51,168 nucleotides of DNA from a virus. Within the stretch, counting starts at the first letter, position 1; each line of letters opens with the position of its first letter. Below, one piece after another: positions 12,157-43,969 of the stretch. The position numbers were made by a program, and so were the translations under genes. The notes beneath the pieces are model-generated. The model did not search any database, had not been told where the DNA came from, and worked only from the letters and a program-made list of their open reading frames with translations. The stretch lies in the IMG/VR virus record IMGVR_UViG_3300036760_000389, positions 1 to 51,168 of that record, one strand, 5' to 3'.

Positions 12157-13845
12157 ATGCTAACAATACCTATACCCGCAAGTTATGTTTTACCGATAGC
12201 CTCCGGCTCAGTCCTTGGTGGCATAAAGGTCGGAACCCGTTTGTCAATTACAGATGGGGTTCTAAGTGCCGACGTTCAGACCACAGATATCTCAGGCAAG
12301 GAAAATGTCGGAGTTGCTGCCGGATTGGTTTCTGACCATGCCGCTTTGCTTACAGGTGTTCATGGATTATCAATAACGTCCGGTAAGGTTTTGACCGTTC
12401 AGGACAATGTGACTATTTCAGGTGCATTGGGTACTGCTGCATATGTCGCTGAGTCGGCCTATGCCCTTCTTGCTGGTCGTGCTGGCGGTCAGACCTTAAT
12501 TGGAGGCACTGCCGCTTCTGAAACTTTAACCCTGCAATCCACTTCAAACGCCACGAAAGGTAAAATCCTTTTTGGAACTTCGGCTTATGATGAGGTGAAT
12601 AATAGGCTGGGCATCGGGACGACGAGTCCAAACAATACCATTCAGGTAGCAAATTTAATCAACTTTGATAATACTGATTTCAACACCAAACTCGGTTATC
12701 AGGCGGGTCTGAACATAGTAGCAGGTGCTCAATACAATACTTTTCTCGGTTATCAAGCAGGATTATCAAGTGCCACATTAAGCACCAATGCGGCGGATTA
12801 TAATACGGGAATTGGTTATCAAGCCCTCTATTCCAACACCACAGGCTACCAAAACACTGCTAATGGTGTGAATGCCCTCCTCTACAACACCACAGGCAAC
12901 CTAAACACTGCTAATGGTGTGAATGCCCTCCGCTCCAACACCACAGGCTACCAGAACACCGTCAATGGTGTGAATGCCCTCCGCTCCAACACCACAGGCA
13001 ACAACAACACCGCCAATGGTATGCAAGCCCTCTACTTCAACACCACAGGCAACAACAACACCGCCAATGGTATGCAAGCCCTCTACGACTTAGGCATCGC
13101 CCAAACAGCGGGTAGTTTCAATGTTGGGACAAGCTATACAATCAAAACAATAGGCACGACTGATTTTACCTTAATCGGTGCAGCATCTAACACAGTCGGC
13201 GTAGTATTCACCGCAACGGGAGTAGGTTCAGGCACAGGCACAGCCACACCCAATAACACGAATAGCAACACGGCTCTTGGCTACAACACAGGCAGAGGAA
13301 TTATCTACGGCACTGGAAATACTATACTTGGTGCAAATGTAGCAGGGCTTGCCGCAGGGCTGACCAATAATATCATCATCGCTGACGGAGCGGGGAATCA
13401 GAGGATAAATGTAGATAGTAACGGCAACGTCGGCATCGGGACGACGAGTCCCACTGCAGTCTTACACTTGAAAGCAGGCACAGCCACTGCTTCAACTGCA
13501 CCGTTTAAATTTACATCAGGCGTTTCACTTACTACAGCAGAAGTTGGAGCAATAGAATTTACGACAGACGATTTCTTTGCCACGATAACAACGGGGGCAA
13601 GCAGAAAAGGAATTGTTTTAGATGACGGAGCAAGACTTACAAGTGGGAAGATACCAGTCGCCACTACCAATGGTAGGTTAGTGGACTTAACTGCTCAAGC
13701 TCACGAAGCAGACGCAAAAGCAGATTATGCCGCAGGGGATTTGGACACAGAGGCGGAAGTTATTACAACGATCAACGCTACCAATGCAAAAATAAACGCC
13801 TTACTCGTTAAATTAGAAAATCTTAAATTATTAGCAACATCATAG
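12157..13845 (+). CDS. tail fibre with 17-residue repeats
   Basis: This 562-residue protein has five or more tandem 17-residue repeats of type NTTGxxNTANGxxALxx (residues ~227-310), a beta-helical motif of trimeric fibres. A TVGVVFTATGVGSGTGTA insert (about 349-366), common in phage fibres, follows, then GNVGIGTTSPTAVLHLKAG and a C-terminal helical trimer region (about 500-562). It should be a fibre or spike part that contacts the host. Shine-Dalgarno AAAGGTGG. It sits in the lysis cassette, consistent with exchange of host-range and lysis genes together. Confidence 0.8.
   Translation: MLTIPIPASYVLPIASGSVLGGIKVGTRLSITDGVLSADVQTTDISGKENVGVAAGLVSDHAALLTGVHGLSITSGKVLTVQDNVTISGALGTAAYVAESAYALLAGRAGGQTLIGGTAASETLTLQSTSNATKGKILFGTSAYDEVNNRLGIGTTSPNNTIQVANLINFDNTDFNTKLGYQAGLNIVAGAQYNTFLGYQAGLSSATLSTNAADYNTGIGYQALYSNTTGYQNTANGVNALLYNTTGNLNTANGVNALRSNTTGYQNTVNGVNALRSNTTGNNNTANGMQALYFNTTGNNNTANGMQALYDLGIAQTAGSFNVGTSYTIKTIGTTDFTLIGAASNTVGVVFTATGVGSGTGTATPNNTNSNTALGYNTGRGIIYGTGNTILGANVAGLAAGLTNNIIIADGAGNQRINVDSNGNVGIGTTSPTAVLHLKAGTATASTAPFKFTSGVSLTTAEVGAIEFTTDDFFATITTGASRKGIVLDDGARLTSGKIPVATTNGRLVDLTAQAHEADAKADYAAGDLDTEAEVITTINATNAKINALLVKLENLKLLATS
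12834..13088 (+). repeat. 51-base tandem repeats within fibre gene
   Basis: Five imperfect copies of a 51-base unit, each starting near AACACCACAGGC, encode the NTTG repeats. Copies differ by point changes; the last two are nearly identical. Such arrays can change copy number by slippage or recombination and so vary fibre length. Confidence 0.85.
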
Positions 13846-33138: not shown

Positions 33139-33376
33139 ATTTCTTTCTGCTCCTTTTTGCTTTCTTACAAAGCCATATAATATAAAACTTAAGGATGGAA
33201 TATGTGTTTGTTTCCATACAAGCTCTAACTATATCTATGTTTATAGGTATACCTTTATGTTTATGCTTAATACGTGGAATAAAACCTTCATAGTACATAT
33301 AGCATCCATTTTCCTTTGCTAACATAATTATTCCAGGGGTAACTAAATCTAATATTGATAAAGCATCAATTCTCAC
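33128..33376 (-). CDS. hypothetical protein, 82 aa
   Basis: It overlaps both neighbours (ATGA with the polymerase gene stop; 11 bases with the next gene). The product has mixed hydrophobic residues (IIMLAKENGCYMYYEGFIPR) and a strongly basic end (KKAKRSRKKYAM). Ribosome-binding signal TGGAGGGAT upstream. No family recognised. Confidence 0.6.
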   Translation of the reverse strand: MRIDALSILDLVTPGIIMLAKENGCYMYYEGFIPRIKHKHKGIPINIDIVRACMETNTYSILKFYIIWLCKKAKRSRKKYAM

Positions 33377-35802
33377 TTCATATCCCTCCAGTTAATCCCA
33401 CACTTAATGTCGATTGGTATAGTACATACTCTCCCTTTAATCATGACTGGGATTGACATTAACTTATGCAACTGGTTATGGACGAAGAATGTGAGTTCAG
33501 GTGGATGCTGCACGAGAATGCTGTCATGGACATTCAGTAGAACTTCGATACTTTTGTATGGCGCACACAGCTTATTGTATACATTGATAAGGCCAAGGTT
33601 TAAGATGTGAGCGGCGGTCTCTTGGGGGATGTAGGCCAAACCCTGCTTGAGAAGTTCAGGCCCATACCTGTCGAAGAACTTTCTCTTTCTGCCTAATGGT
33701 GTTATAAGTATCCTATCTTTCTTAAGTTGTTGGTCTACTTCACTATGCCACATTGCAAGGTTCGGGCTTCTGTCTCTGAAGCGCTGGATGAGTTTCTCGG
33801 CGTCGGCCTTTGGTATCTTTAGGTTCATGCTGAGAGTGTATGCGCCGACGTTGTAGTTACCTGCGTGGCGGGTGGTCTTGGCGCGATGGTAGAAGGATTC
33901 AGTGTCGCGGCCTTCTTTGTGGCATATCTTTTTATCTCTGGCTATAGCATCAGGAGTAAGTGCGGGCCATATCATCATCGCTGTGTGGGTGTGGATGTTC
34001 TCTCCGTTGATGAACTTGGAAATGAGGAGTTCGTCTTCGCATAAGTAAGCGACGATCATAGCTTCCGCACCTTTAAGGTCGGCCTCGCTGAAGATTTTGC
34101 CTGGGTCAGGTACAACGATGTTACGAAGGCTGGCTTTGACGTTCTGAAGGTTGGTGGCGCTACCGAAGATACCAACACTTGATGAGAGTCTACCAGTGGC
34201 GGCTCCAGTACTGTTGAAGGAGCATCTCCATCTGCCATCCTCTCCATCGCCAGGCGCTTGGAGGTGATTACTGAGAAGAACCGATGCCTCACGGAAGCCA
34301 ATGATGTTCTTGAACTCTGGGGATTTGACTGCAAGTTTGTCGAGAGCCTGTTTGTTGGTGGAAGGCTTGCCATCTTTCATAGGCGGCTTAAGGCCGAGTT
34401 TATAGATAAGTTCGAGTACTTGTTTAGGTGAGCGTAAGTTTATCTCACCATATTTAGCAGTAAATATCTCTTTGTTATGCTTAAGCTTCGCTGTCATGTC
34501 TATGACGTGTTGGGTGCGAGCGGATTCGTCAATGCGAACTCCGCGCAACATCATGTAGAGCAATGGTTCGAGGAGTTCCATCATAAAGTCGTAAGTATGG
34601 GTGACACCTAACTCTTTCATCTCGTTCTGCAGAGCATAGTGGCACTCAAGGGTGACGGCTGCATCATTAGCGTTGTAGCGCCATAATGCCTCATCGTTGG
34701 ACTTGCCATCGATCCATTTCTTTAGCTCATCTTTATAATAGGGTTCGTCGGTGTAGATGGAGGAGATAAATGCTAGGGACTTTGTTTTCATGACACGTTT
34801 AGCCTTGGAAGAACCTTCTTCCTTTTGTTCACCTGACAAGTCAGGATAACAAGTGTGTTGGGCTATCATAGTATCATGCCACGGCTTAGTGGGCAGGATG
34901 CCCCAGATGCGGATGAGATACTGGAGGTCGTAGGATATATTTTGGCCTACCTTTGAGGCTTTGCTTTCCAGTAGAAATTGGATACCTTTTAAGACTTCGT
35001 GCAGTCTGCTGATGCTACCCCAGTAATGCTTGGTGGTAGGAATGGATATAGCAATGTTTGGCGATGAGGATAATGCAATGCAAGTTATATCGGAAGGGGA
35101 AGTTTCAATATCGAAACTTACCTCCGAAGCGTTGTTTGTGTATATGTAATCTACTACATCGCTGTAAGTAGGAGCGACTCGTAACTCGCGCTGTGGATAC
35201 TTCACCTCAGGGAATGCACTCTGCACTTTAACCTTCTCTAAATCACACTGAAGCACAGCCCCAAGTTTCCAATCGCGGATGACAGCAGCAGGGTGGTAGG
35301 AAGCGATTATTTTAATGATGCGACCTGAAGGGAGGGTGCAAGGTAATATCGAGCCACGCCAGATGCTTATCTTCGACTGGCCTGTTAATGCCCATAGTGC
35401 GCTATTACCAAGAGGGACGAAAACATTAGCTTTGACATTCTCAAGGCGAGCAAGAAGGGATGCTTTAGCGTCGATGAGAGCTTGTGTAGGACGTGAGCCG
35501 CTCCAGAAGATGCTGAAGTCATTCTCGTTCTTAGGACGGCGGATGCCACTGTAACCAAGCGTCTCTTGGTGCTTATAGAATGTAGCGGGGCGCACCTGTA
35601 TAAGGTTATCAATGTAACACTGATGACGGATGATGCCAGTGGCATGGAGTTTTATGTTAAGGATGTTGCCGGACATTCCTACGAAAGGTTCGTGAGCAAG
35701 TTCTTCATCATGGCCAGGGGCTTCACCGATGAAGGCGATGCGAGCTGTGAGAGGGCCTACAGCTGGAACGAATATAGATTCAAATAGCTTTGTATCTATC
35801 AT
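33373..35802 (-). CDS. UDG-exonuclease-family A DNA polymerase fusion
   Basis: A single 809-residue chain. Residues ~15-190 are a family 4/5 uracil-DNA glycosylase-like domain (GEAPGHDE at 26-33, EPFVGMSG, SYHPAAV near 169-175). Residues ~225-400 form a DnaQ-type proofreading exonuclease with D231/E233 (FDIETS), D292 (NISYD) and D380 (YNANDAA), all apparently intact. Residues ~400-809 are Pol A: motif A ADLKGAEAM (D575, E580), motif B with K642, H646 and Y650, motif C VHDSI (D760). SPO1 polymerase has a comparable UDG domain. ATG 35802, after CAGGAAAA, is preferred to GTG 35823. Confidence 0.92.
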   Translation of the reverse strand: MIDTKLFESIFVPAVGPLTARIAFIGEAPGHDEELAHEPFVGMSGNILNIKLHATGIIRHQCYIDNLIQVRPATFYKHQETLGYSGIRRPKNENDFSIFWSGSRPTQALIDAKASLLARLENVKANVFVPLGNSALWALTGQSKISIWRGSILPCTLPSGRIIKIIASYHPAAVIRDWKLGAVLQCDLEKVKVQSAFPEVKYPQRELRVAPTYSDVVDYIYTNNASEVSFDIETSPSDITCIALSSSPNIAISIPTTKHYWGSISRLHEVLKGIQFLLESKASKVGQNISYDLQYLIRIWGILPTKPWHDTMIAQHTCYPDLSGEQKEEGSSKAKRVMKTKSLAFISSIYTDEPYYKDELKKWIDGKSNDEALWRYNANDAAVTLECHYALQNEMKELGVTHTYDFMMELLEPLLYMMLRGVRIDESARTQHVIDMTAKLKHNKEIFTAKYGEINLRSPKQVLELIYKLGLKPPMKDGKPSTNKQALDKLAVKSPEFKNIIGFREASVLLSNHLQAPGDGEDGRWRCSFNSTGAATGRLSSSVGIFGSATNLQNVKASLRNIVVPDPGKIFSEADLKGAEAMIVAYLCEDELLISKFINGENIHTHTAMMIWPALTPDAIARDKKICHKEGRDTESFYHRAKTTRHAGNYNVGAYTLSMNLKIPKADAEKLIQRFRDRSPNLAMWHSEVDQQLKKDRILITPLGRKRKFFDRYGPELLKQGLAYIPQETAAHILNLGLINVYNKLCAPYKSIEVLLNVHDSILVQHPPELTFFVHNQLHKLMSIPVMIKGRVCTIPIDIKCGINWRDMK

Positions 35803-35992
35803 TGTATTTTCCTGTTCTGTCACAGTATATGTTAATCAATATATCTACTTCTGTGCTTGGCCATGCAAACAGCGATACATTGTTGAATTCAAAATGTACT
35901 ACTACATTTAAAATCTTTGCAATTCGTATAGCTTCAATACAAGTCACATCAAGGAAAGCACCTGGTGCTGGTTTAACTGTTAATTCGATCAT
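35780..35992 (-). CDS. small beta protein before polymerase, 70 aa
   Basis: Start overlaps the previous stop (ATGA), end overlaps the polymerase start by 23 bases. The core VVVHFEFNNVSLFAWPSTEV resembles small phage proteins with a FxFNxV-type beta strand, function unknown. Confidence 0.62.
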   Translation of the reverse strand: MIELTVKPAPGAFLDVTCIEAIRIAKILNVVVHFEFNNVSLFAWPSTEVDILINIYCDRTGKYNDRYKAI

Positions 35993-42752: not shown

Positions 42753-42781
42753 AGTATAACAAATTGTGTGTACGTTGTCAA
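42753..42781 (-). promoter_or_regulatory. strong extended -10 promoter for replication operon
   Basis: On the minus strand TTGACA (42781-42776), 17-base spacer, TATACT (42758-42753), with TG one base upstream of the -10. This is near consensus. Start near 42746, leading into genes at 42.7-31.05 kb. An imperfect inverted repeat (AACAAAATT...AATTTGTT, 42781-42802) sits right upstream and may be an operator. Confidence 0.85.
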
Positions 42782-42833: not shown

Positions 42834-42965
42834 TTATTTATTGTGCTGAATGCTCAAGTCGTGAACGGTTAGCGTGGTGGGGACTCCCGTTATTAAACTA
42901 TTGATTCCTCCAGCTCCTACTCCAGCTCTCGCTCCCGCTCCTGCTCCTGCTCCCGCTATTTTCAT
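42834..42965 (-). CDS. Gly-Ala dipeptide-repeat protein, 43 aa
   Basis: ATG 42965 opens MKIAGAGAGAGARAGVGAGG followed by a non-repetitive tail INSLITGVPTTLTVHDLSIQ. The repeat is coded by 6-base units GGAGCN. Frame is supported by its clean end and its place after the DUF6948-like B gene. No clear Shine-Dalgarno. Similar low-complexity composition to the neighbour at 43.4-43.6 kb. Confidence 0.5.
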   Translation of the reverse strand: MKIAGAGAGAGARAGVGAGGINSLITGVPTTLTVHDLSIQHNK

Positions 42966-42993
42966 ATGCAATACGCAACACTACCGCATTCAT

Positions 42994-43347
42994 TTATTTC
43001 TGGCTCCGAGGCAGAACAAGTCTCCACGGTCTGATTATTACCACTGAACCCTTCATTATGAAAACAAGCCCATCGGGGAACGGTTCCACTTCATTGAAAA
43101 TCCCTGACTGCATGGCCTGTGCATATCTTCCGGTGTCCACAATCCATGCACACTGGTCAAGGATAAATTCGTCACATTTGATAGCAACCAATCGTCCCGT
43201 GTAGTATTTTGTTACAGTTTCGATATAGTACTTTTCTCCAATGACATACGGCCCCGATCCTTCTTCGCATGGTACGTTCGGAAGTACTGTTGACTTTTTA
43301 ACGTATTCCTCGCCATTCACAACAATTTCGCATTCTAAATTTTTCAT
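42994..43347 (-). CDS. DUF6948-cassette partner protein B
   Basis: This 117-residue protein follows the Gly-rich gene with AAAGGAGAGAG upstream. GPYVIGEKYYIETVTKYYTG (32-51), CAWIVDTGRYAQAMQSG and FNEVEPFPDG align with matching segments of the 43.6-44.0 kb gene (YVIVRTYSAGVFMGHL; WMWDGAATLSQLAI), suggesting distant paralogues. Related proteins pair with DUF6948 proteins in phages and prophages; function unknown. Confidence 0.68.
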   Translation of the reverse strand: MKNLECEIVVNGEEYVKKSTVLPNVPCEEGSGPYVIGEKYYIETVTKYYTGRLVAIKCDEFILDQCAWIVDTGRYAQAMQSGIFNEVEPFPDGLVFIMKGSVVIIRPWRLVLPRSQK

Positions 43348-43370
43348 CTCTCTCCTTTTAAATAAGTATT

Positions 43371-43622
43371 TTAACCGTAACCGGAACCGTAACCGGAACC
43401 GTAACCGTAACCGTCACCAGAACCGTCACCGTAACCGTCACCGTCACCGGAACCGGAACCGTAACCGTCACCGTCACCGGAACCGGAACCGTAACCAGAA
43501 CTGGAACCAGAACCGTCACCGGAACCGGAACCGTAACCGTAGCCGGAACTGGAACCGTCACCAGAACCGTAGCCGGAACTGGAACCGGAACTGGAAATGG
43601 AACCGTTTGCTATCTTTTCCAT
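43371..43622 (-). CDS. Gly-Ser-Tyr-Asp repeat protein, 83 aa
   Basis: After a short non-repetitive lead (MEKIANGSISS) the whole protein is Gly alternating with Ser, Tyr or Asp (SGYGSGDGSSSGYGYG), to a Tyr-Gly end. It is strongly acidic, has no hydrophobic segment and 14 or so regularly spaced Tyr. The [G/S]Y[G/S] pattern is like phase-separating or glycine-loop proteins; adhesive or scaffold roles are only inference. Coupled to the upstream DUF6948-like gene by a 13-base overlap. Coded by slippage-prone 6-base units. Confidence 0.75.
   Translation of the reverse strand: MEKIANGSISSSGSSSGYGSGDGSSSGYGYGSGSGDGSGSSSGYGSGSGDGDGYGSGSGDGDGYGDGSGDGYGYGSGYGSGYG
43376..43600. repeat. hexanucleotide tandem array
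   Basis: About 37 units of the form (T/G)(A/C)ACC(G/A) on the plus strand (GTAACC, GTCACC, GGAACC). All variants preserve Gly in one frame of the minus strand while the alternate codon varies among TAC, TCC and GAC. Copy number should be unstable through replication slippage. Confidence 0.9.
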
Positions 43623-43969
43623 ATAGGTACTCCTTGAATTGATTTAACCGCTTTTTTTGTGCAAGGGATTATCTCAATAGCTTGCAAGAGAAGTATTTCC
43701 GGTACTGGCATAGGGAATTTGCAACCAGACGGGTTAGATGTTCCATCTATGGCTAACTGTGATAGTGTAGCCGCACCGTCCCACATCCATAATCTTCTGG
43801 CATCTTGCAACATTACTTCTTGCCCAATTCTTGATTTAAGATGTCCCATAAAAACACCTGCCGAATAAGTTCTAACAATTACATAGTTTTCATACTGGTC
43901 ATTGTTTCTGATGCTATCTTTCCGCACATATTCGGTCTCATCAATTTTAATCATTTCAGGGTTTGACAT
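43610..43969 (-). CDS. DUF6948-like protein A
   Basis: AAAAGGAGGATTAA precedes the ATG. The 119-residue protein has the DUF6948 pattern: YVIVRTYSAGVFMGHLKSR (29-47), EVMLQDARRLWMWDGAATLS (51-70), FPMPVPEILLLQAIEIIPCT and a VPIWKR end. The family has no established biochemical role. It is the first gene of a four-gene cassette that ends at 42834. Confidence 0.75.
   Translation of the reverse strand: MSNPEMIKIDETEYVRKDSIRNNDQYENYVIVRTYSAGVFMGHLKSRIGQEVMLQDARRLWMWDGAATLSQLAIDGTSNPSGCKFPMPVPEILLLQAIEIIPCTKKAVKSIQGVPIWKR

Follow-up and report, generated by a model that had tools for sequence, protein, structure and literature searches.

A phage gene pair encoding a DUF6948 protein with a predicted Sm-like fold and a Gly-X dipeptide-repeat partner, and a second module built on the same plan

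Do small folded proteins and low-complexity repeat proteins that alternate in a phage cassette act together, and in what process? The question is raised by four minus-strand genes in IMG/VR record IMGVR_UViG_3300036760_000389, whose entire 51,168 bases form the window analysed here. A first-pass annotation of this DNA had read the genes as one cassette in which two related proteins, A and B, are each followed by a Gly-rich repeat protein, and had proposed an undescribed phage system for assembling a matrix, a condensate or a host inhibitor. In the window, the structural genes (a terminase with a weak match, an SU10-type portal and a capsid gene) are on the plus strand, and the genes of DNA metabolism are on the minus strand, encoding a primase-like DUF3987 protein, a DNA polymerase A with a UDG domain, a ParB/N4-N6 methylase, a Sak4-like protein and a PDDEXK exonuclease. 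The A/GX/B/SX cassette (Table 1) sits upstream of these minus-strand genes and has the same direction, and a search near it gave no structured RNA or tRNA. A putative promoter at its downstream end probably serves the next genes, in a region where the promoter count is not above that of shuffled sequences.

Table 1. Positions of the cassette features in the window
Feature	Position	Strand	Basis
A, DUF6948 protein, 119 aa, predicted Sm/LSm-like 5-strand barrel	43610..43969	-	Pfam, AF2, Foldseek
Shine-Dalgarno-like AAGGAG for GX, within the A coding sequence	43630..43635	-	sequence
GX, 83-aa Gly-X dipeptide-repeat protein (X = S/Y/D)	43371..43622	-	sequence, conserved partner, frame test
Hexanucleotide array GGTNNC coding for GX	43373..43606	.	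TRF, hexamer statistics
B, 117 aa, second family without a Pfam model, predicted Sm/LSm-like barrel	42994..43347	-	relatives, AF2, Foldseek
SX, 31-aa Ser-X repeat protein (X = G/R/E/W)	42898..42993	-	conserved frame after B
Sigma-70-like promoter TTGACA-17-TATACT, 11/12 match (putative)	42753..42781	-	just downstream of cassette

Protein A, described earlier as DUF6948-like, is a clear member of Pfam family DUF6948 (PF22253; E = 2.7e-31, 108 bits against a curated cut-off of 27), to which Pfam gives no function. The other features first noted for this half of the cassette, namely the GX frame of 83 residues, its 13-nt overlap with A and the hexamer array, are all real in the sequence, and the AAGGAG lies 7 nt upstream of the GX ATG. 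We collected DUF6948 loci from viral and bacterial contigs using A alone and an alignment of its relatives, the repeat not being used, and obtained 153 loci (the window included), each with at least 60 nt downstream. A Gly-X ORF was scored when it had at least four dipeptides and its start fell between -80 and +60 nt relative to the DUF6948 stop. Such an ORF, with X = Ser, Tyr or Asp, was found directly downstream of DUF6948 in 148 of the 153 loci, and had at least eight dipeptides in 139, compared to a Gly-X follower after only 9 of the 1487 control ORFs (120 aa or longer) taken from the same loci. When the DUF6948 proteins were clustered at 90% identity, GX was present in all members of 132/138 clusters; at 70% identity it was present in all members of 32/37 and in some member of 34/37. 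Among the five loci that lacked it, two have degenerate 3-unit runs (L124 and L149), one has none (L150), and two carry DUF6948 genes that look truncated or broken (L157 and L159). Where GX seemed to lie some 300 nt farther downstream, the exception was false, arising from a tblastn match that started upstream of an in-frame stop or from the choice of start. The expected linkage of DUF6948 with Gly-dipeptide genes in other phages, many of them unrelated, is thus far beyond chance and near-universal.

The spacing of the two genes is also conserved. GX starts 10 nt before the DUF6948 stop codon in 105 loci, as it does in the window, and a Shine-Dalgarno core precedes 48 of 122 GX starts (background 9.8%) and 30 of 60 SX starts, compared to 10-13% at control places. 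The overlap, the conserved start position and the Shine-Dalgarno core strongly support the translational coupling of A and GX that had been suggested from the overlap. Many IMG/VR and genome contigs end within the GX array (for example L016, L020, L026, L033-L036, L041 and L100), which indicates that the repeat breaks assemblies; databases probably count too few GX genes and hold them in truncated form.

The same association was seen from the side of the repeat. Scanning viral contigs for nine consecutive GGYKMY hexamers gave at least 120 stretches; among the matches listed, 59 had DUF6948 directly upstream, 21 were too near a contig end and 40 were others. Thus, of the 99 listed arrays with room upstream, 59 were adjacent to DUF6948 and 2 more had it in the same ORF (L180) or nearby (L194). 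Many of the remaining 38 listed arrays consist of nothing but (GS)n or (GA)n and lie in other surroundings, and most of the mixed S/Y/D/N arrays among them follow remote relatives, mostly of the type 'DRGFVYVG...' or 'DRGWIFAGDV...'. These relatives have no DUF6948 match in Pfam, and profile comparison joins them to the family (97% between the core and group 1, and 97% between groups 1 and 2). The ORF of L180 holds a DUF6948 domain and a GX array within 236 residues; it is the only clear fusion seen and, as a natural one, supports a joint function of both parts. PHROG 18306, which is matched by A at positions 154-231 and, weakly, by a GX protein at 57-134, may represent a fusion in the other order.

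A longer arrangement of the repeat occurs in gut Bacteroidales/Clostridia-type contigs, where the GX tract is flanked by a short leader and a domain of about 150 aa with a conserved WHHxLTGSCxxGR-like motif (L006, L007, L060, L113, L115, L118, L119, L123, L127, L131-L134, L136 and L138). No Pfam or NCBIfam model matched this domain above cut-off. The embedded position of GX in these phages indicates that the polymer can also be part of a longer chain.

The second half of the cassette follows the same plan with other sequences. B has no Pfam match, the DUF6948 profile included, and a pattern search with B alone gave no relatives, so that an alignment was required; a viral scan of IMG/VR then gave 125 relatives, of which 80 were taken for neighbourhood study, and the window together with the usable loci among these made a set of 79. 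The only relative among phage records is MW202573.1, in which the overlapping ORF MNAAIIRAGLDASWSWSWSWSRSRS... then follows. In the window, the ATG of SX directly follows the B stop codon, and SX reads MNAVVLRIAYENSGSRSRSGSESWSRSWRNQ; at 31 aa it is a short copy compared to the family median of 74 aa. Across the set, a Ser-X ORF follows B in 73/79 loci, X being mostly Trp, Arg or Gly, with the start most often 1 nt before the B stop and a leader of consensus MN(A/Q)xxxRxG(F/Y)(D/E). The Gly-Ala protein of 43 residues assigned here by the first-pass annotation (45 aa from a TTG start in the ORF list) is a wrong frame. It is the +1 frame of the SX array, in which the choice of Ser codon decides between RG, AG, QG/HG and LG; Ser-X, by contrast, stays constant. 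In a reverse scan for (TCGNGG)7, 60 arrays were adjacent to B, 31 lay too close to the end of a contig and a further 30 did neither, so that B precedes 60 of the 90 SX arrays with room upstream. Several of the non-B arrays are preceded by a third small family, C, which hhalign relates to B at 96.7%.

Family C ('NYIYTGKLVGVN...IVYETG') has no Pfam match and precedes SX arrays in L380, L386, L420, L441, L459, L473 and L480. In L070/L359 (contig 3300045141_000102) B is immediately followed by an HNH endonuclease-like ORF, and in L455 such an ORF immediately precedes an SX array, which suggests insertion into a B-SX pair.

The peptides themselves, and not only the arrays, appear to be translated and maintained. 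In GX arrays the Gly codon may be GGC, GGT, GGG or GGA and third bases vary, while X stays Ser (.35), Tyr (.29) or Asp (.23); in SX arrays the Ser codon may be TCG, AGC, TCA or TCT, of which TCG and AGC are more than one step apart, and X stays Arg (.31), Gly (.31) or Trp (.29). This variation of codon types between phages with constant peptides argues that the peptides are selected. Arrays with a conserved start share the frame of that start in 109 cases vs 4 for GX and 45 vs 3 for SX, and the SX leader varies in a coding-like manner (entropy 0.92, 0.76 and 1.72 bits at codon positions 1, 2 and 3). The length of GX changes by whole hexamers, from 53 to 89 aa in Pectobacterium phages whose A proteins are 92-100% identical, and in Barba isolates whose upstream 1,315 nt are the same, a single hexamer separates the GX genes. 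These Rheinheimera Barba phages (MT4972xx, MK7197xx; L366-L368) comprise 115 isolates on one host with a remote DUF6948 gene and GX, and their GX, varying by hexamer steps and single changes, is a natural length-variation series; in Barba1A, GX is gp017 and the barrel protein gp018. A composition test found aromatic stickers on flexible polar spacers in both polymers, with opposite chemistry: GX is acidic with Tyr (net charge negative in 110/114, median -9) and SX is basic with Trp (positive in 50/51, median +11). We regard A-GX and B-SX as very probably real, selected two-gene modules.

The two modules are, in general, separate. A was found on 5/50 B contigs and B on 1/50 A contigs, that is, together in 6/100, values that are lower bounds since contigs may be fragments. 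The tandem of A-GX and B-SX in the window is an uncommon co-occurrence, and the earlier view of the four genes as one unit does not hold. An obligate partnership of A and B through opposite charge was considered and dropped as a general rule for the same reason. As the modules seldom share a contig, the common principle is a barrel with an aromatic-sticker polymer rather than charge pairing, and the opposite charges of GX and SX fit no single electrostatic role.

AlphaFold2 models both A (pLDDT 94.5) and B (pLDDT 86.7) as small beta-barrels. The Foldseek PDB matches listed for the two are of Sm/LSm type or contain such a domain, with probability 1.00 (examples are 1i8f, 1lnx, 1jri, 6ppn and 3by7); NatC (6yga series), Edc3 (6am0) and TIP60 (7xm1, 7eq9), also among them, we take to be Sm-fold cases. 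E-values ranged from 1.6e-3 to 3e-2 (best 3.7e-3 for A and 1.6e-3 for B), with no PDB match below 0.001 for either protein, and no Sm protein in the PDB was matched by the A-family profile. The Sm1 motif DxxMN was found in 0/94 and 0/70 members of the A and B families, and an Sm2-like hydrophobic-[RK]-G in the C-terminal half in only 11/94 and 7/70; canonical U-RNA binding is therefore not supported. On these models, an Sm-like fold is likely for both proteins, which are best described as Sm-like in predicted fold and not as members with canonical RNA binding. The first description of B as distantly similar to A agrees with this shared predicted fold, on which the relation rests, and finds marginal agreement in sequence (BLASTP E = 0.043; hhalign 42-84% depending on the alignment).

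The best overall explanation, to which we give a probability of about 0.5, is that each module consists of a translationally coupled Sm-like barrel and a sticker-and-spacer polymer used in early DNA metabolism. A with GX, and separately B with SX, would be two-component modules in which barrel and disordered dipeptide-repeat polymer are produced together through translational coupling and act together. The barrel would be the folded core, probably ring-forming, and bind nucleic acid or peptide; the polymer would place aromatic stickers along Gly/Ser spacers, Tyr in the case of GX and Trp in that of SX, and would add charge through Asp and Arg, respectively. Gly or Ser spacers that carry aromatic residues are, in textbook terms, typical of chains that phase-separate. 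Together the two partners would most likely build, on phage RNA or on ssDNA, either a condensate or a multivalent particle, and the assembly would act in the early replication/recombination programme. Linkage, overlap, frame, peptide selection, length change by hexamer steps, predicted fold and one fusion make up the computational support, from which we infer physical interaction, ring formation, nucleic-acid binding and condensation. Binding between barrel and polymer, or their action within a single assembly, is more likely than not. Condensate formation is plausible; that the assembly is specifically a condensate on nucleic acid is a tentative proposal. An early-infection role is suggested by the neighbours of these genes, which belong to DNA metabolism in the window and to recombination or replication in phiPLPE (RecE, Bet), Pappous (exonuclease VIII, Erf, SSB), CV-1-33 (Gp157, ERF) and Barba1A (polymerase, exonuclease). 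Speculatively, phages of many bacterial lineages might use an Sm-like ring that receives its tail in trans from an overlapping gene to build early RNP or ssDNA condensates, acidic Tyr-Gly-Ser and basic Trp-Arg-Ser tails being answers to the same problem.

Other functions for the polymer were weighed against this explanation. It could be an inhibitor or toxin acting on the host, with the barrel as chaperone, regulator or antidote: a pair of small genes that overlap and seldom occur apart would suit such an arrangement, and the fast change of peptide length between near-identical phages fits an arms race, but simple slippage would also give that change, GX peptides are acidic whereas SX peptides are basic, and the PADLOC defence library gave no match except one marginal AbiEi (E = 0.027), so we hold it improbable. 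Nor were the defence-system, NCBIfam and PHROG matches informative in general. Structural material, of the virion or of an intracellular matrix, with the barrel as its dedicated binding or assembly factor, is suggested by the silk-like Gly-X alternation and by the gut-phage repeat placed between a short N-terminal leader and a domain of about 150 residues. Small barrels of the Tudor/SH3-type class bind repeat peptides, and the phage barrel could be a reader of this kind; the genes, however, lie in the early DNA-metabolism region outside the structural block, and this role too seems rather unlikely.

The acidity of GX and the early gene position would suit an anti-defence decoy in which GX mimics nucleic acid or absorbs a host factor and is delivered with a nucleic-acid-binding barrel. 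Nucleic-acid mimicry cannot be common to both families, however, as SX is positive, and we consider the decoy quite improbable. That the hexamer arrays are DNA or RNA elements with incidental coding capacity is consistent with their being slippage-prone and with the many contigs that end in them, but is very unlikely and already disfavoured: the hexamer DNA differs (Ser as AGC vs TCG) with the peptide kept, the arrays keep to the frame of the conserved start, and the leader varies as codons do.

The module with a coupled barrel and polymer has partial likenesses among known systems. Eukaryotic SmD1/SmD3/SmB, with their RG tails, and LSm4 are Sm/LSm proteins with low-complexity tails, and the phage modules likewise associate an Sm-like barrel with a disordered dipeptide-repeat chain; in contrast, the phage chain is in a separate overlapping gene (in the window and in all but L180), its repeats are G-[SYD] or S-[WRG], and the canonical Sm1/Sm2 RNA-binding residues are absent or rare. 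The FUS-family [S/G]Y[S/G] and SR (Ser-Arg) sequences are known low-complexity domains. GX resembles the former in being rich in [G/S]Y[G/S] and SX the latter in being Ser-Arg/Ser-Trp, but GX and SX are far more regular and are separate small phage-encoded proteins. The nearest published analogue is found in Borgs, whose Sm ribonucleoproteins have N-terminal tandem-repeat disordered regions with units of 4-17 residues in the same chain; such regions occur in 5/19 Sm proteins, with Sm1/Sm2 motifs preserved (PMC9879509). Common to both is a mobile-element Sm protein, or for the phages a predicted Sm-like one, with a rapidly evolving tandem-repeat disordered region, but a separate partner gene holds the phage dipeptides in about 97% of cases. 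In the open-access literature we found no paper naming DUF6948 or describing these repeat proteins or pairings, and no account of the near-obligate Gly-X neighbour of DUF6948; mention elsewhere is possible. Both barrel-repeat pairings are apparently undescribed as far as that literature goes, and to this extent the original proposal of an undescribed phage system holds.

If the proposed module is real in function, it would be a widespread phage gene pair in which a folded barrel and a low-complexity polymer are separate, nearly obligate partners, although its members are mostly annotated as unrelated hypothetical proteins and the repeat gene even as 'lamprin'. It would offer a minimal, genetically tractable system for the role of low-complexity dipeptide polymers, in which near-identical phages of the Rheinheimera Barba and Pectobacterium sets supply natural variants in length and one architecture bears two opposite chemistries.

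Two further features of the window lie outside the cassette. The DNA polymerase A ORF (33373-35823, minus strand) carries an N-terminal UDG superfamily domain (Pfam UDG, E = 1.2e-18; DNA_pol_A, E = 4.5e-44). On the plus strand, a 51-bp tandem repeat of 4.9 copies at 12832-13083, inside a 562-aa ORF (12157-13845), is probably a tail-fibre-like repeat.
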